NCBI RefSeq assembly: GCF_001896135.2
Contig: NZ_MPOH02000009.1
Coordinates: forward strand, 210,082-274,081
Source: Streptomyces phaeoluteigriseus
GTDB taxonomy: Bacteria; Actinomycetota; Actinomycetes; Streptomycetales; Streptomycetaceae
Direction: 5' to 3'
Length of the DNA stretch: 64,000 nt
A model generated the notes under the pieces. That model ran no database searches. It saw nothing but the letters and a program-made list of their open reading frames with translations, and had not been told where the DNA came from. Positions 35,979 to 43,841 of this stretch are shown one piece after another. Position 1 is the first letter of the stretch, and the number at the start of each line of letters is the position of its first letter. Both the position numbers and the translations under genes were made by a program.

Positions 35979-37142
35979 TCAGGTCACCGGCACGGGGACC
36001 GGCGCCCGGGGCCCCACATAGCGCGCCGCAGGTCGGATGATCTTCCTGTCCTCCGCCTGCTCCAGGATGTTGGCGCTCCAGCCGACGACACGGGCCGCCG
36101 CGAAGGTGGGGGTGAACATCTCGCGGGGCAGCCCGCACAGTTCCATGACGACGCCCGCGTAGAACTCCACGTTCGCGTGCAGTTCCCGGCCCGGCTTCAG
36201 CTCGGCGAGGATCGCCTCGACCTGCCGCTCGACCTTCACGGCGAAGTCGACGCGTGGTCCCCCGAAGCGCTGGGCGATCTCGCGGAGCATGCGCGAGCGC
36301 GGGTCCTCGGTCCGGTAGACGGCGTGACCGAATCCCATGATGCGATCACCGGCCAGAACCCGCTCACGGATCCACGAGTCGATGCGGTCGGGCGTGCCGA
36401 TCGCGTCCAGGGTGTCCAGCGCACGGCTGGGGGCACCGCCGTGCAGGGGTCCCGACAGCGCCCCCACGGCGGCGACCAGACACGCGGCCACGTCCGCGCC
36501 TGTCGAGGTGACGACGCGGGCGGTGAAGGTGGACGCGTTGAAGCCGTGATCAATGGTGGAGATCAGATATTGCTCGACGGCACGCGCCCGGTCCGGTTCC
36601 GGCTCGGCGCCGGTCAACATGTACAGGTAGTTCGCCGCGTACGAGAGGTCCTCACGCGGCTCGACGGGATCGAGGCCCTTGCCCAGCCGGTACAGCGCGC
36701 TGAGCAGCGTCGGTACGGCGGCGGCCGCGGCGAGGGTGTCCCTCCGGCGCCGGTCGGCGTCGGTGTCGTACACCGGCCGGAAGCCCTTCGCCGCGCCGAG
36801 CAGTGACAGGGCCGTCCGGAGCCCGGCGAGCGGGCCGGTGCCAGCGCCCGCCTCCGCGATGGCCGGCAGGGCTGCCGCCACCTGGTCGGGGAGGCTCCGG
36901 AGAGCCGCGGTCTCGGCGGCGAAGACGGCGGCGCCGCGCGCGTCCGGCAGGTCGCCGTGGATGAGGAGATGCCAGACGTCCTCGAACGGGCGGCTGCGGG
37001 CTAGGTCGACGGCCGAGTACTGGCGGTAGTGGTAGAAGCCCTCGCGTCCCCGGACGTCACCGACCTCGGTGTCGGCGACGACGACACCGGCAAGTCCTCG
37101 CGGTACCTCGACGACTGTGGCTGCGGACCTGTTGACGGACAT
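35979..37142 (-). CDS. Citrate synthase family protein (citrate or 2-methylcitrate synthase)
   Basis: The enzyme condenses acetyl-CoA (or propionyl-CoA) with oxaloacetate. The 387-residue type-II-like protein has the oxaloacetate His in GPLHGGAP and the second His in GFGHAVYR. The catalytic Asp motif, usually NVDFY, here reads NVEFY, a conservative Asp-to-Glu change seen, from memory, in this actinobacterial subgroup. ATG 37142 has a perfect AAGGAGG. It is divergent from a second citrate-synthase-like gene with an N-terminal HTH, and an AT-rich palindromic region lies between them, so joint control by that protein is likely (inference). Confidence 0.9.
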   Translation of the reverse strand: MSVNRSAATVVEVPRGLAGVVVADTEVGDVRGREGFYHYRQYSAVDLARSRPFEDVWHLLIHGDLPDARGAAVFAAETAALRSLPDQVAAALPAIAEAGAGTGPLAGLRTALSLLGAAKGFRPVYDTDADRRRRDTLAAAAAVPTLLSALYRLGKGLDPVEPREDLSYAANYLYMLTGAEPEPDRARAVEQYLISTIDHGFNASTFTARVVTSTGADVAACLVAAVGALSGPLHGGAPSRALDTLDAIGTPDRIDSWIRERVLAGDRIMGFGHAVYRTEDPRSRMLREIAQRFGGPRVDFAVKVERQVEAILAELKPGRELHANVEFYAGVVMELCGLPREMFTPTFAAARVVGWSANILEQAEDRKIIRPAARYVGPRAPVPVPVT

Positions 37143-37177
37143 GGTTTCCTCCTTGAACTTGATTTCGACTGTCCATG

Positions 37178-37213
37178 ATTGACTAAATCTCTGTCAATAT
37201 TGATTCAGTCAAT
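37178..37213. promoter_or_regulatory. Palindromic operator between the two citrate-synthase-family genes
   Basis: An outer inverted repeat ATTGACT (37178-37184) / AGTCAAT (37207-37213) encloses the perfect palindrome TCAATATTGA (37194-37203). The 82-base gap is very AT-rich. It lies where both divergent promoters must be, so one bound protein could control both genes. The HTH-citrate-synthase encoded next door is the natural candidate. Confidence 0.7.
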
Positions 37214-37242
37214 GTATATGTTCTGTGGATACGGTGACCCTC

Positions 37243-38508
37243 ATGCGCGATCAGGAACCCGGCCCCGGCCACCCGGAACGACGGTTGACCACCAAGGAGG
37301 CCGCCGAGCTGCTCGGCGTGAAACCCGAGACCGTGTACGCGTACGTCAGCCGCGGACAGCTCAGCAGCCGGCGCGTACCGGGCGGCCGGGGCAGCACCTT
37401 CGACGCCCAGGAGGTCGACAGGCTCGCGCGGCGCAACAGGCGGGAGAGCAACGGGAGTCCGGGCACGGGCGCCGAGCAGTCCGTACGCACCCGCCTCACC
37501 CTCATCGACCAGGACCGGTACTACTACCGGGGCGTCGACGCGACCGAACTGGCCGCCCGGCATTCGTACGAAGAGGTCGCCGAGTGGCTGTGGACCGGCC
37601 GACTGCGGACCGGAGCCACCTTCACCGCCCCCCGGGCCTCCGTCGAGGCCGCCCGCCGCGCGGTCGACGCGCTGCCCGAGCACACCGGTCCCACCGACCG
37701 GCTGCGCGTCGCCGCGATCTCCGCCGCGGTGGCGGACCCGCTCCGCTTCGACCTCTCCCAGGACGCCGTGCTCGGCGCCGCCCGCGGCCTCATCCCGACC
37801 CTCGTCGCCGCCCTGCCGCCGAAACTGCCCTCCCACCGGGACTGCGGCTCCCTGGCCCAGCGGCTGTGGGGACGGCTCAGCTGGCAGCCCGCGGCGGAGG
37901 CGCCACTGCACGTCCTGGACACCGCACTCGCCTTGCTCGTCGACCACGACCTGGCCGCGTCGACGCTCGCGGTGCGGGTGGCGGCCAGCGCCCGCGCACA
38001 CGCCTACGCGGCCGTCACCGCCGGTCTCGGAGTGATCGAGGGCCCCCTGCACGGTGCGGCCAGCGGGCTCGCGCACCGGCTGGTGCTCGAAGTGCTCGAC
38101 CAGGGCTCCGCGGGACCCGTGATCGCGGAGGAACTGCGGGCCGGCCGCCGCATCCCCGGCCTGGGACACCGGCTCTACACGCAGGAGGACCCCCGCGCGC
38201 GTGCCCTCTTCGCTCTTCTGGAGGAGATCCCCGAGGCGGCGCCCGCACTGGCGGCCGCCCGCGACATCGTGGCCACGACCGCCCGGCACACCCCGCTGCA
38301 CGCCAACGTCGACCTCGCGCTGGCCGTCCTCACCGCGTCCTGCGGGATGGAGGCGTCGGCGGGCGAGACCGTCTTCGCCGTCGCCCGGACGGCGGGCTGG
38401 ATCGCGCACGCACTGGAGGAGTACGGCGAACGCCCCCTGCGCATGCGGCCGAGCGGCCTCTACGTGGGCCCGAAACCTCCCCGACCGCTCCCGCGACAGG
38501 GCCCATGA
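37243..38508 (+). CDS. HTH-citrate synthase fusion protein
   Basis: An N-terminal excisionase/MerR-like helix-turn-helix (RRLTTKEAAELLGVKPETVYAYVSRGQL, about 15-45) is fused to a citrate-synthase fold. The fold keeps the three catalytic signatures: GPLHGAAS (His), GLGHRLYT (His) and HANVDLALAV (Asp). It could be an active synthase, a regulator that senses acyl-CoA or oxaloacetate, or both. ATG 37243 has GGTGA upstream. A GTG at 37225 in the same frame lies too near the likely -10 (TATGTT, 37217-37222). It is divergent from a plain citrate-synthase gene across a palindromic operator. Confidence 0.88.
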   Translation: MRDQEPGPGHPERRLTTKEAAELLGVKPETVYAYVSRGQLSSRRVPGGRGSTFDAQEVDRLARRNRRESNGSPGTGAEQSVRTRLTLIDQDRYYYRGVDATELAARHSYEEVAEWLWTGRLRTGATFTAPRASVEAARRAVDALPEHTGPTDRLRVAAISAAVADPLRFDLSQDAVLGAARGLIPTLVAALPPKLPSHRDCGSLAQRLWGRLSWQPAAEAPLHVLDTALALLVDHDLAASTLAVRVAASARAHAYAAVTAGLGVIEGPLHGAASGLAHRLVLEVLDQGSAGPVIAEELRAGRRIPGLGHRLYTQEDPRARALFALLEEIPEAAPALAAARDIVATTARHTPLHANVDLALAVLTASCGMEASAGETVFAVARTAGWIAHALEEYGERPLRMRPSGLYVGPKPPRPLPRQGP

Positions 38509-38634: not shown

Positions 38635-39576
38635 GTGAGTACGTGCACGACCGTCTCGCGGGACCTCGACGAGCCCATGGCCGGGACCGCGGCCACGGCG
38701 ACGACCTGGCTGCTGCTGGAGCAGCCCGGCCCCTGGGGCGCCAAGGCGCTCACGTCGAGTCACCTGGACCCGGCGCTGGGCCGCGCGCTCGAGGCCGCGG
38801 CGCAGGGCACCGGCGTTCGTGTCGCGCTCATCCGGCGCCCCGGGCCGCACGCCGACCTCGGCACCACTCGCCAACGCCAGGTGTACGCGGCCCACACCGT
38901 TCCCGGCAGGGTGTGGCTGCGCAGCGCCACCACCGACGACCCCGGCCGGCTGGCGGACCTCGACTTCGCCGCGCTCGGCCGAGGCGAGCACCACACCTTC
39001 GACACCGCACTCCACGGCCGCCCCCACACCGGCGACCCGCTCGCCCTCGTCTGCACCAACGGCAAGCGCGACCGCTGTTGCGCCCTTCTGGGCCGCCCTC
39101 TCGCCGCCGAACTCTCCTCGTCGGGCGTCGACGGGATCTGGGAGGTCACCCATCTGGGCGGTCATCGCTTCTCACCGACCGTGCTCGTCCTGCCGTACGG
39201 CTACGCGTACGGCCGCGCCCAGGCCCACTCCGTCAAGGAAGTGCTGCACGGCGCCCAGGAGGGTCGCGTCGTCGTGGAGGGCTGCCGCGGGAACTCGGCG
39301 TGGGAACGGCCCGGTCAGGCGGCGGAGCTGGCCGTGCGGACGGCGACCGGCGAGTACGCGGCCGAGGCTCTCACCGTCGTCCTCACGCGGGGCGAGGCGC
39401 CCCGCTGGGAGGTGACCGTCGCCCACGTGGATGGTCGGCACTGGCGGGTGGTCGTGGCCCAGGGCGCTTCCCTGCCGCCCCGACCGGAGAGCTGCGGGGC
39501 GGCCGTCCTCGGGTCACCCGCGCGGATGGAAGTGGTGGCGGTGCACGCACTCAGGCCGGCGGCTCTGGTCGGCTGA
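38635..39576 (+). CDS. Sucrase/ferredoxin-like family protein
   Basis: This 313-residue protein of the sucraseferredoxin-like (thioredoxin-fold ferredoxin) family probably carries or reduces an iron-sulfur or iron-siderophore cofactor. It has the Cys-rich motif CTNGKRDRCCALLG and GGHRFSPTVLVLPYGYAYGR, with a further Cys in EGCRGNSAWERPGQ; these fit the ligands of thioredoxin-like [2Fe-2S] proteins. The GTG start coincides with the end of an iron box, so it should be expressed when iron is scarce. No siderophore genes are adjacent. A role in iron release or electron transfer is inference. Confidence 0.88.
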   Translation: MSTCTTVSRDLDEPMAGTAATATTWLLLEQPGPWGAKALTSSHLDPALGRALEAAAQGTGVRVALIRRPGPHADLGTTRQRQVYAAHTVPGRVWLRSATTDDPGRLADLDFAALGRGEHHTFDTALHGRPHTGDPLALVCTNGKRDRCCALLGRPLAAELSSSGVDGIWEVTHLGGHRFSPTVLVLPYGYAYGRAQAHSVKEVLHGAQEGRVVVEGCRGNSAWERPGQAAELAVRTATGEYAAEALTVVLTRGEAPRWEVTVAHVDGRHWRVVVAQGASLPPRPESCGAAVLGSPARMEVVAVHALRPAALVG

Positions 39577-39703
39577 CCGGCCGATCCCTCATGATCGATC
39601 TTGCCCTGAGACGATCGCTGAACCGTTTCCTCTTGAGCCGATCAAGAGATCCACACAACACACCCCCTACGGATCCGCGGGCCCGCCCACGTACCGTCGG
39701 GGT

Positions 39704-41373
39704 ATGAGCCCCACTCCCCCCGCCCGTCGCCTGCGCCTCGGGATGCCCCGGCGCGTCTTCTCCCAGATCCTGCTGATGCAGCTGGCGATCGCCGCGGGAG
39801 TCGTCGTGCTCGCGACCGGACTCTTCCTGGCCCCGCTCAGCGACCAGCTCGACGACCAGGCCATGCGCCGCGCGCTCGCCGTCGCGCAGACCACCGCGGC
39901 CGTACCGCAGATCGCCGAGGACCTCCGGCGCACGCCGCCGTCGGTCGACGGGCCCGTGCAGCAGGCGGCGGAGCGGATCCGCAAGGCGAGCGGGGCCGAG
40001 TACGTGGTGGTGATGGACCTCCGCGGCACGCGCTGGTCCCACACCGAGCCCCAGGAGGTCGGCGGCCACGTCTCGACGGACCCCAGCGAGGCCCTGGCCG
40101 GCCGGGACGTCATGGAGATCGACAACGGCACACTGGGCCGCTCGGCCCGCGGCAAGGTGCCCCTGCGCGACGGCGACGGCAGGATCGTCGGAGCGGTCTC
40201 GGTCGGCATCGAGTACGACAGTGTGCGCGCCCGGCTCATCCACGCCATCCCGGGGCTGTTCGCCTACGCGGGAGGCGCGCTCGCCGTGGGTGCGCTGGCC
40301 GCCTGGCTGATCTCCCGGCGGGTCCAGCGACAGACCCGCGACCTCGCGTTCTCCGACATCTCGGCGCTGCTCTCCGAGCGCGAGGCGATGCTGCACGGCA
40401 TCCGGGAGGGCGTCGTGGCCCTGGACCGGGCCGGCCGCGTCCGCCTGCTCAACGACGAGGCACAGCGCCTCCTGGGCATCGGTGAGGAGGCCGTGGGCCG
40501 GTCACCGGACGAGGCTCTCGGCGAGGGCCGTACGTCCGACGTTCTGGCCGGCCGGGTGACCGGCACGGACCTGGTCGCCGTCCGCGGACAGCGTGTGCTC
40601 GTAGTCAACCGGATGCCCACGGACGACGGCGGTGCCGTGGCCACCCTCAGGGACCGCACCGAGCTGGAGCAGCTGGGGCGGGAACTCGACTCCACGCACG
40701 GGCTGATCGACGCCCTTCGCGCCCAGGACCACGAGCACGCCAACCGCATGCACACGCTCCTGGGGCTGCTCGAACTGGAGATGTACGACGACGCCGTGGA
40801 CTTCGTCGACGAGGTGGTCGGCGATCACCGGGCCACCGCGGAGCAGGTGACCGAGAAGATCGGGGATCCGCTGCTCGCCGCCCTGCTCGTCGGCAAGGCG
40901 ACCGTGGCGGCCGAACGAGGTGTCGCCCTGTGGATCTCGGACGGCACGCGGCTGCCCGACCGGCTGATCGACCGCGCGGGCTGGTGACGGTCGTCGGCAA
41001 TCTGGTGGACAACGCGCTGGACGCCGTGGCCGGCACCGCGCACGCGCGCGTGGAGGTCGAGTTGCGGACCGAGGGCCGTAGCGTCGTGCTGCGGGTGCGG
41101 GACACGGGGCCGGGGGTGCCGGCCGAGCATCATGAATCGATCTTCACCGAGGGTTGGTCCACGAAGAAGCCTCCGGCCCACGGCAAACGCGGCATCGGCC
41201 TCTCCCTGGTGCGCAGGCTCGCCGAGCGGCAGGGCGGCGGCGCGTCCGTGCGCGACGCGCTCGGCGGGGGTGCCGAGTTCACCGTCGTACTGCCCGAAGC
41301 CCTGACCGAGGCCGAGCCGGAGCCCGCCCTGGCCGCACCCGCGCAGGGCACCGTCGAGGAGGAGTCGCGATGA
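39704..41373 (+). CDS. CitA/DcuS-type sensor histidine kinase, one frameshift
   Basis: This membrane sensor is probably for an extracellular di- or tricarboxylate. It has a membrane helix at about 25-45, an extracellular PAS-like (PDC) domain with VVVMDLRGTRWSHT, a second helix (AYAGGALAVGALAAWLISRR), a cytoplasmic PAS domain (EGVVALDRAGRVRLLNDEAQRLLG), and the LytS/CitA-type His in LRAQDHEHANRMHTLLGLLE. The catalytic domain (GNLVDNALDAV, GKRGIGLSLVRRL) is in another frame: one C is missing at about 40972 (GACCGCGCGGG for GACCCGCGCGGG). The corrected length is about 556 residues. Its last four bases overlap the response regulator start (ATGA). A weak ribosome site precedes ATG 39704. Confidence 0.9.
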
Positions 41374-42248: not shown

Positions 42249-43841
42249 CTACACGGCCCCCGCCCCCGTCAGCGACCGGACCTCGGTCTCCGCGTGCTTG
42301 GCCTCGTCCGCCACCTCCGCCGAGGTGACCGTGCCGAGCCAGCCGGCGAGGAAGCCCAGGGGGATCGAGACCAGTCCGGGGTTCTGGAGCGGGAAGACCT
42401 GGAAGTCGACGTCGGGGAAGATCGACTGGGAGCTGCCCGACACGACGGGTGACAGGGCGACGAGCACCAGGGCAGGGACCAGCCCGCCGTAGACGGCCCA
42501 CACGGCGCCCCGCGTGGTGAAGCCCCGCCAGAACAGCGAGTACAGCAGGACCGGCAGATTCGCCGACGCGGCGACGGCGAAGGCGAGTCCCACCAGGAAG
42601 GCGACGTTGAGATCGCGGGCCAGCAGACCGAGACCGATCGCGACGACGCCGATGCCGACGGCGGCGATCCGCGCGACCGTCACCTCGCTGCGCGGTGCGG
42701 CATGCTTGCGTCGCAGCGAGGCGTACAGGTCGTGGGCCACCGACGCGGAGGAGGCGAGCGTGATCCCCGCGACCACGGCGAGGATCGTGGCGAAGGCGAC
42801 GGCCGCCACGATCGCGAACAACACGGTCCCTCCCGTGGAGCCGGCTCCACCTCCCAGGTCGAGGGCCAGGAGCGGAACCGCCGTGTTCCCCGAGGCGCTG
42901 GAGCCGCGTACGGCGTCCGGGCCGACGATCGCCGCCGCGCCGAAGCCGAGGACGATCGTCATCAGGTAGAAGCCGCCGATGAGTCCGATCGACCAGACGA
43001 CGGATCGCCGGGCGGCCCGCGCCGTCGGCACGGTGTAGAAGCGCGACAGGATGTGCGGCAGGCCCGCCGTGCCCAGCACCAGCGCGAGCCCCAGGCTCAT
43101 GAAGTCGAAGCGGGCGATCCAGTCCCCGCCGTATTTCAGGCCGGGCGCCAGGAACGCGGCACCGTGCCCGCTGCGCTCGGCCGCCGTACGCAACAGCCGG
43201 TCGAAGTCGCCGTGGAAGCGCACCAGGACGAGCACGGTGAGCACGATCGTGCCACCGAGCAGCAGGACCGCCTTCACGATCTGGATCCAGGTGGTGGCCC
43301 GCATCCCTCCCAGCGACACATAGATCACCATGAGGGCGCCGACGCCGATCACGGCCCCCGTCCGGGCCGCCTCTCCGGTGTCGCCGAGCAGGAGCGCAAC
43401 GAGGCTGCCGGCACCCACCATCTGCGCCACCAGGTAGAGAACGGACACGGTGACCGAGGCCGTCCCCGACGCGATCCGCACGGGGCGCTCGTTCATCCGT
43501 GCGGCAATGACGTCGGCGAGCGTGAAGCGCCCGCAGTTGCGCACCAGTTCGGCCACGAGGAACAGCACGACGAGCCAGGCCACGAGAAAGCCCACCGAGT
43601 ACAGCAGGCCGTCGTAGCCGACGAGGCAGATGAGCCCCGAGATGCCCAGGAAGGAGGCGGCCGACATGTAGTCGCCCGCGATGGCAAAACCATTCTCCAT
43701 GGGGGAGAACAGCCGCCCCCCCGCGTAGAACTCCTCCGCCGAACCCTGCCGGCTGCGGCTCACCCACGTCGTGATTCCCAGCGTGATCGCGACGAAGACA
43801 CTGAACAGCAGCAACGCCAGCGCCTGATGGTTGCCGGTCAC
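42249..43841 (-). CDS. Sodium:solute symporter (cation/acetate symporter family)
   Basis: This 530-residue SSS-family permease has about thirteen hydrophobic segments. It has the N-terminal AITLGITTWVSRSRQGSAEEFYAGGRLFSPMENGFAIAGDYMSAASFLGI block typical of ActP-type acetate or short-chain monocarboxylate carriers, and the Ala/Gly-rich GATRATTW-like loop (GGMRATTWIQIVKAVLLLGG). GTG 43841 overlaps the stop of the DUF485 gene as GTGA. The ActP-DUF485 pair is the standard arrangement of acetate/pyruvate carriers. The convergent CitA/CitB pair might regulate it. Confidence 0.93.
   Translation of the reverse strand: MTGNHQALALLLFSVFVAITLGITTWVSRSRQGSAEEFYAGGRLFSPMENGFAIAGDYMSAASFLGISGLICLVGYDGLLYSVGFLVAWLVVLFLVAELVRNCGRFTLADVIAARMNERPVRIASGTASVTVSVLYLVAQMVGAGSLVALLLGDTGEAARTGAVIGVGALMVIYVSLGGMRATTWIQIVKAVLLLGGTIVLTVLVLVRFHGDFDRLLRTAAERSGHGAAFLAPGLKYGGDWIARFDFMSLGLALVLGTAGLPHILSRFYTVPTARAARRSVVWSIGLIGGFYLMTIVLGFGAAAIVGPDAVRGSSASGNTAVPLLALDLGGGAGSTGGTVLFAIVAAVAFATILAVVAGITLASSASVAHDLYASLRRKHAAPRSEVTVARIAAVGIGVVAIGLGLLARDLNVAFLVGLAFAVAASANLPVLLYSLFWRGFTTRGAVWAVYGGLVPALVLVALSPVVSGSSQSIFPDVDFQVFPLQNPGLVSIPLGFLAGWLGTVTSAEVADEAKHAETEVRSLTGAGAV

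Follow-up and report, generated by a model that had tools for sequence, protein, structure and literature searches.

The window analysed here, a stretch of 64,000 nucleotides from Streptomyces phaeoluteigriseus, contains an open reading frame (37225-38508, plus strand) whose product joins a winged helix-turn-helix (HTH) to a citrate synthase (CS) body. GTG codons at 37225 and 37234 are alternative starts in this frame; the likely start is ATG 37243, 7 nt downstream of TACGGT (37230-37235, plus strand), a -10-like element. Of the 73 orthologous genus loci, 68 have a TAnnGT element 6 or 7 nt before the ATG or GTG of the fusion gene, so the fusion mRNA is probably leaderless. On the basis of this conserved TAnnGT-N6/7-ATG arrangement, the gene, a candidate one-component regulator, was placed at 37243-38508.

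The HTH (37285-37440, plus strand; residues 21-72 of the predicted protein, P0001) is of the HTH_17, MerR_1 and excisionase families by Pfam and NCBIfam profiles. Its matches to HTH_17 (residues 21-72, E 1.3e-9, 38.6 bits against a cut-off of 27), MerR (E 4.4e-7, 30 bits against 28.2) and MerR_1 (29.5 bits against 21.6) give it the MerR-type winged HTH of the MerR family, while the score for HTH_BldC of NCBIfam, 26.9 bits, does not reach the cut-off of 77. The body (37480-38451, plus strand; residues 86-409), a candidate sensor and dimerisation domain, matches Citrate_synt (PF00285) from profile position 7 to 356 out of 357 (E 8e-61, 206 bits against a cut-off of 27) and is thus a full-length member of the CS fold family. 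Two His motifs (PLHGAA and GLGHRLY) and the Asp motif (NVDLA) are all present, as the initial annotation of this DNA, made from the letters alone, had claimed when it described an HTH fused to a CS fold with its catalytic motifs retained. The protein scores under the cut-off of every NCBIfam CS model among the matches listed (25 of 26 families). In an AlphaFold2 model (19-row alignment, sequence read from GTG 37234, pLDDT 88.8), the head shows the element order E-H-H-E-E-H; one helix (model residues 58-71) leads to a low-confidence linker (71-81) and the CS fold. In the MerR family, an antiparallel coiled-coil dimerisation helix follows the HTH. A VIA-align structural search with the fusion, in which one domain fills the list, returned CS chains only among the matches listed, the best of these being 1a59 (Z 37.4, rmsd 3.1, 330 residues aligned). 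The HTH profile gave three weak matches to solved structures, including SoxR (E 8e-4).

Divergent from the fusion, as also described at the outset, lies a plain CS gene (35979-37142, minus strand; Citrate_synt E 1e-111), the candidate target of the fusion. Its product belongs to the PRK12350 subfamily (343 bits against a cut-off of 332), has B. subtilis 2c6x as its best PDB match, and carries Glu in place of the catalytic Asp (NVEFYAG); NVEFYA is also found at the corresponding place in 2c6x. The source genome (G000) has four genes of the CS family. Downstream of the fusion are genes for a Suc_Fer-like protein, a DcuS/DcuR-like two-component pair and an MctC-type monocarboxylate transporter. 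The DcuS-like sensor kinase gene (39431-41373, plus strand) appears frame-shifted, with sensor, PAS and SPOB_a domains up to 40987 in one frame and HATPase_c from 40930 in another; this is either a sequencing error or a pseudogene. The transporter gene (42249-43841, minus strand) adjoins the two-component pair and is also present in genomes that lack the fusion, for example G002 and G004. Its score above the MctC equivalog cut-off ruled out a tricarboxylate transporter as the identity of the gene at 42-44 kb.

The gap between the divergent genes is AT-rich, in line with the initial annotation, but its length, given there as 82 bases, becomes about 100 bp when the fusion starts at ATG 37243 behind the leaderless-looking TACGGT. 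It holds a candidate operator core, TGTCAATATTGATTCAGTCAAT (37192-37213), that consists of a palindrome, RTCAAYRTTGAY, and a third half-site, RTCAA, and that contains TTGACA on the CS strand. On the CS side of the core are a left half-site, ATTGACT (37178-37184), conserved in the genus at a fixed spacing from the core, and a CS-proximal box, CTTGATTTCGACTGTCCATG (37158-37177), which is likewise genus-conserved and resembles TTGACTTAACTGTCCA, the published MtrA EMSA site of S. coelicolor. The ATTGACT/AGTCAAT repeats that had been noticed around a palindrome are real: ATTGACTAAATC (37178-37189) and GATTCAGTCAAT (37202-37213) are 92% complementary, and TCAATATTGA lies at 37194-37203. The concentric arrangement had to be abandoned, since the midpoint of the arms (37195.5) differs from that of the palindrome (37198.5). 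Also rejected was the long-arm palindrome as the unit conserved outside the genus, where conservation extends instead over RTCAAYNTTGAY and a third RTCAA after it. The 64 kb hold a single copy of TCAATATTGA, and none was seen in 100 shuffles. With up to three mismatches allowed, the extended operator pattern has one occurrence in the window and its 22-bp core version has one site in the genome of 8.6 Mb. A strict promoter scan revealed no consensus promoter in the gap. The core was also considered as the -35 element of the fusion promoter and rejected in this role, as only 8 of 34 core-bearing loci have, on the fusion strand, a TTGAYN-16/18-TRNNNT that begins within the core.

Conservation was examined in an alignment of 73 orthologous loci of the genus, comprising 70 divergent pairs and the loci L015, L026 and L065; four loci at which no CS was found on the stretch beside the fusion (L008, L014, L019 and L082) were deliberately excluded. 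The resulting consensus is cTTGaTtcGACtgTCcAtg.TtGAct..at..cTGTCAATaTTGATtgaATCAAt. Conservation of the palindrome at orthologous loci, the check put forward with the original proposal, is borne out: the core is nearly invariant, the left arm and the CS-proximal box (37158-37177) are conserved, and the DNA from the core to the fusion gene is variable, with a distance from the core to fusion codon 20 of 46 to 153 bp. The element carries 1.33 bits per column on average, and the 19 columns that follow on the fusion side carry 0.19.

Presence of the two genes was called in 295 genus genomes (E<=1e-120 for the CS, E<=1e-60 for the fusion). The CS is present in 189 and the fusion in 196; 188 genomes have both, 1 has the CS only, 8 have the fusion only, and 98 have neither. 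A strict core pattern was found in 168 of the 295 genomes, every one of which has both genes, and in 0 of the 107 others, and the reversed-pattern control gave 0 hits in the 295. Joint loss of the two genes could be put down to linkage alone; the consistent absence of a solitary site could not. The sole genome with only the CS (G027) lacks the core and keeps the CS-side ACTGTCCATG. Among the fusion-only genomes, G226 and G275 have a core before the fusion that the strict pattern missed, which weakened the strict claim that the operator occurs only with the CS; G181 and G102 have a partial core. No core was found before the fusion in G013, G107, G110 and G262, where the fusion persists and aligns over its HTH, and thus the fusion may have another role there; a second G262 site, with 2 mismatches, is at an unrelated gene. 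Twenty genomes with both genes lack the strict pattern. Five of these were rechecked with up to three mismatches allowed, and four were positive (G191, G211, G280 and G293), while G136 showed no core even at this tolerance. A match beginning at residue 74 had raised the suspicion of a natural loss of the HTH in G211; reading of the DNA ruled this out and showed an operator variant before a fusion with an intact HTH.

Fusion-level matches (E<=1e-36) were obtained in 54 of 296 class genomes and 15 of 114 genera. Several of the 54 begin after the HTH, and the weakest (G347), which starts at residue 88, is probably a plain CS. Fusion-level matches were also found in other actinobacterial lineages, where rows near E 1e-34 to 1e-39 that start after the HTH are, judging by these alignments, probably plain CSs too, and on large replicons of Embleya, Nonomuraea, Deinococcus, Comamonadaceae, Cupriavidus, Ensifer and Agrobacterium. 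From the distant set, 44 loci were taken and one (L133) was dropped for want of an HTH match, leaving 43. Upstream of the HTH, within 260 bp, RTCAAYNTTGAY is present at 33 of the 43 loci (shuffle mean 0.02 over 200 rounds), and RTCAAYNTTGAY followed by a third RTCAA stands before the HTH-CS gene at 32 of the 43 (0 in shuffles); since several of these loci are close relatives, the counts do not represent independent events. Elsewhere in the 333 kb of distant loci, RTCAAYNTTGAY occurs 4 times, and together with the third half-site once. The operator-bearing loci include Deinococcus and Alpha- and Betaproteobacteria, and their TCAA-to-TCAA spacing is 15-19 bp. The full pattern is missing, in some cases by a single mismatch, at 11 of the 43 loci: L115-L118 have half-sites only, L131 has the third half only, L132, L230, L236 and L246 are near misses, and L134 and L245 show no operator pattern before the fusion.

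At some of the distant loci the gene opposite the fusion is not a CS. The partner at L129 is of the HMGL type, with homocitrate synthase as its highest-scoring model (230 bits, equivalog cut-off 463); tblastn revealed relatives of it, 75-84% identical, at the same place in L126, L130, L233 and L246, and another relative faces the fusion at a contig end (G417:C138). The Deinococcus wulumuqiensis fusion faces an HMGL-like 'pyruvate carboxyltransferase' for which homocitrate synthase is again the top match, below the cut-off; in Comamonadaceae the partner is a 2-hydroxyacid dehydrogenase. A homocitrate-synthase-like (HMGL) gene was seen opposite the fusion repeatedly (L126, L129, L130, L233, L246 and L296); by its sequence it could be a Re-citrate synthase or a homocitrate synthase. 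Of the swapped-partner loci, all but L246, which has one mismatch, have the core pattern. The operator stays with the HTH-CS gene despite the change of partner, and nothing else argues as strongly that the fusion is its reader.

The 296 class genomes were also scanned site-first, with the pattern TCAAYRTTGAYN{2,7}RTCAAYRT and without use of genes. The scan returned 38 sites in 35 genomes, and its reversed-pattern control hit 2 of the 296 (G439 and G473). Twenty-nine of the 38 sites lie within 850 bp of a fusion-level match. A further three sit at a truncated fusion (G529), a contig-end fusion (G417:C138) and a relocated CS (G292); the other six are in G554:C122, G411, G473, G501 and, as two overlapping matches, G417:C188. 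By genome, the site is present in 31 of 54 with a fusion-level match versus 4 of 242 without, G529 being among the four. In G292, a full CS with its own TCAATATTGATTGAATCAATAT is found some 20 kb from the fusion, and a CS fragment and the core remain at the fusion. Inspection by eye of L295 (G417:C188) around 2716 showed a repeat-rich TCAACGTTGACATATGTCAACGTTGA upstream of a secreted-glycoside-hydrolase-like gene, possibly the site of another regulator.

Active-site residues were compared in an alignment of 202 non-identical fusions (154 from Streptomyces-type loci and 48 others) with 181 CSs, in what we take to be pig CS numbering. The fusions keep H238 (201), H274 (201), H320 (200) and R329 (202 of 202), as well as D375 (201 of 201 aligned), R401 (201 of 201) and R421 (199 of 199), so that, if gaps are counted as missing, 199-202 of the 202 fusions, that of the window among them, retain the catalytic His/His/Asp and oxaloacetate-site Arg residues. 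The exceptions are L134, a distant paralog, in two His, and L112 and L114 in the second His. L134 (G003:C22) is a diverged HTH-CS paralog in which two active-site His are gone and which is without the operator. The 181 CS rows keep all of the compared active-site residues with one exception: at D375, 178 of them have Glu, as do 177 of 177 partner-type rows. The three Asp-bearing rows (L083, L085 and L133), none of which faces a fusion, are among the four non-partner rows (L083, L084, L085 and L133). A different picture was obtained on the CoA side, at the positions presumably equivalent to the CoA contacts Arg324 and Lys368 of the pig enzyme. The R324 position is basic in 37 of 202 fusions versus 179 of 181 CS rows, and the K368 position in 7 of 201 versus 181 of 181; the fusion of the window has T at both and in this respect departs from CS enzymes. 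With the oxaloacetate-site residues kept and the CoA-side basic residues mostly lost, the fusion would appear to possess an intact oxaloacetate/citrate pocket without a CoA anchor. Of the two ligands originally suggested, oxaloacetate thus fits the retained site residues, and an acyl-CoA is less favoured. In a tree of CS domains with the HTH removed, built by a quick method, unrooted and with three long branches flagged, 44 fusions fall on one side of a branch and 19 CSs on the other (SH-aLRT 100).

A regulatory interpretation of the fusion and the gap is strongly supported by these comparisons. The protein is likely, in our view, to act as a one-component regulator, with its CS body as the sensor of oxaloacetate or citrate, and to control the divergent CS gene, and probably itself, by ligand-inducible repression. 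Enzymes of the CS fold are dimers. The CS-fold dimer of the fusion would pair two winged HTHs on RTCAAYRTTGAY, with the third half-site helping. The retained oxaloacetate/citrate pocket would serve as the ligand sensor; with CoA contacts mostly lost, oxaloacetate (or citrate) would be bound but turned over slowly if at all, and closure of the domain on the ligand would change the geometry of the HTHs. Bound at the core, where TTGACA lies on the CS strand, the fusion would repress the CS gene, with the ligand acting as inducer. Repression of its own gene is possible, for in short-gap genomes the core lies just upstream of the fusion's -10-like element. The idea of an enzyme-like regulator of both genes, present from the beginning, is supported in that the core is tied to both genes and recurs at distant fusions; control of the fusion gene itself is less certain. 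Since the gap has no consensus promoter and a promoter starting in the core is seen at so few loci, both the repression geometry and autoregulation are put forward tentatively. The full catalytic triad kept in the fusions is odd for a pure sensor and counts against this explanation.

The sign of regulation could be the reverse, with the fusion activating the CS gene in a MerR-like manner, on a poor promoter, when ligand is present. The HTH is of the MerR type, with SoxR as its best solved relative, and the gap lacks a strong consensus promoter; the overlap of the core with TTGACA on the CS strand, however, is a better fit to occlusion, and no MerR coiled coil is apparent in the AlphaFold2 model. 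We regard activation as a real but less favoured possibility, the position of the core weakly favouring repression.

In another reading, the fusion is a genuine (methyl)citrate synthase with DNA binding as an additional activity, a trigger enzyme similar to PutA that regulates by substrate occupancy during catalysis. The near-universal retention of the catalytic His/His/Asp and Arg residues is what such an enzyme should show, but the CoA-side basic residues are mostly lost and the second His is gone in L112 and L114. In addition, Caulobacter citC, a possible counterpart of the fusion gene with a locus tag next to that of functional citB, failed to complement E. coli gltA (PMC7083601). We consider this reading unlikely.

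Alternatively, a regulator other than the fusion could bind the operator, either MtrA or the response regulator of the DcuR type encoded next door, and the fusion would then be no more than an odd enzyme. According to the relevant extracts of PMC12323332, MtrA shifts a TTGACTTAACTGTCCA probe from the SCO5831-SCO5832 gap of S. coelicolor and both genes are higher in an mtrA mutant late in growth, and a DcuS/DcuR-like system adjoins the locus studied here. Yet the MtrA site is similar to the CS-proximal box rather than to the core, and the core follows the HTH-CS gene as far as Deinococcus and Proteobacteria. For the Deinococcus and Comamonadaceae loci, the PLSDB gene tables, which are incomplete, show no two-component genes over a distance of 4 kb, and the core is absent from G027, which has the CS and lacks the fusion. 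We therefore find it very improbable that the core belongs to another regulator; from the resemblance of the MtrA site to the CS-proximal box and the rise of both genes in the mutant, a second regulator probably acts in Streptomyces. That the gap is conserved merely through shared ancestry or divergent promoters, without a dedicated regulator, is hardly credible: the relatedness of the genus loci and the need for a promoter at each gene speak for it, but information drops sharply in the columns adjacent to the element and the core recurs with non-homologous partners across phyla.

Returning to the ligand-sensing repressor, the fusion faces a CS across a site that recurs at its relatives in very different bacteria, and is thus probably a little-noticed gene switch that senses a compound of the citrate cycle. 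With rather less confidence, we lean towards an ancient family of transcription factors, apparently of single origin, in Actinomycetota, Deinococcota and Alpha- and Betaproteobacteria, which would have lost the grip on CoA, become a sensor of oxaloacetate, kept the same RTCAAYNTTGAY operator, and come to control an adjoining enzyme that condenses acyl-CoA with a 2-oxo acid, be it an ordinary CS or an unrelated DRE-TIM homocitrate-synthase-like protein (conceivably a Re-citrate synthase). If this is true, a metabolite at the entry of the citrate cycle has a direct transcriptional sensor built from the enzyme that uses it, and bacteria of several phyla have an operator in common. Genes annotated as (spare) citrate synthases would acquire a testable function, the paralog pair in Streptomyces central metabolism would be accounted for, and an oxaloacetate/citrate biosensor would be on offer.

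Comparison with known systems places the fusion between several families. Its winged HTH is in the same Pfam/NCBIfam families as those of MerR, BldC and excisionase proteins, but it has a CS body where MerR has a dimerisation helix. It shares with CSs, such as B. subtilis CitA and methylcitrate synthases, the whole fold and the oxaloacetate and catalytic residues, and differs from them in its HTH, in the loss of most CoA-side basic residues and in its separate group in the tree. Caulobacter offers a CS, CitA, whose regulatory role does not depend on catalysis; CitA acts on the cell cycle, which sets it apart from the fusion, and an HTH is not mentioned in the extracts of the source at hand (PMC7083601). 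The same extracts give consecutive locus tags to citB, which is functional, and citC, whose product is not functional as a CS (PMC7083601); citC beside functional citB is a possible published hint of a factor of the kind proposed here. SCO5831/SCO5832 (citA3/citA4) of S. coelicolor is the apparent orthologous locus, with SCO5831 near the sucrase/ferredoxin-like SCO5830 and the two-component pair SCO5829/SCO5828 in the part of PMC9739823 that covers it. In the published passages covered, these genes appear only as citrate synthase or CS-like, and PMC12323332 reports MtrA binding. No description of a CS-fold transcription factor, and no binding or expression experiment on the fusion, was found in the open-licence PMC literature among the matches listed. 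The closest parallel is MocR/GabR, in which an N-terminal winged HTH is joined to an aminotransferase fold used for dimerisation and effector binding (PMC5734734). The fusion has the same kind of organisation, a DNA-binding head, an enzyme-fold body and a conserved putative operator at its own locus, and an analogous role of the body in dimerisation and effector binding is proposed; it differs from MocR/GabR in the CS fold, the MerR/excisionase HTH and the operator, RTCAAYNTTGAY with a third half-site. Thus, an enzyme fold acting as a sensor behind an HTH is already known from GabR/MocR, and the version with a CS fold, for which there is strong comparative support, would be new.
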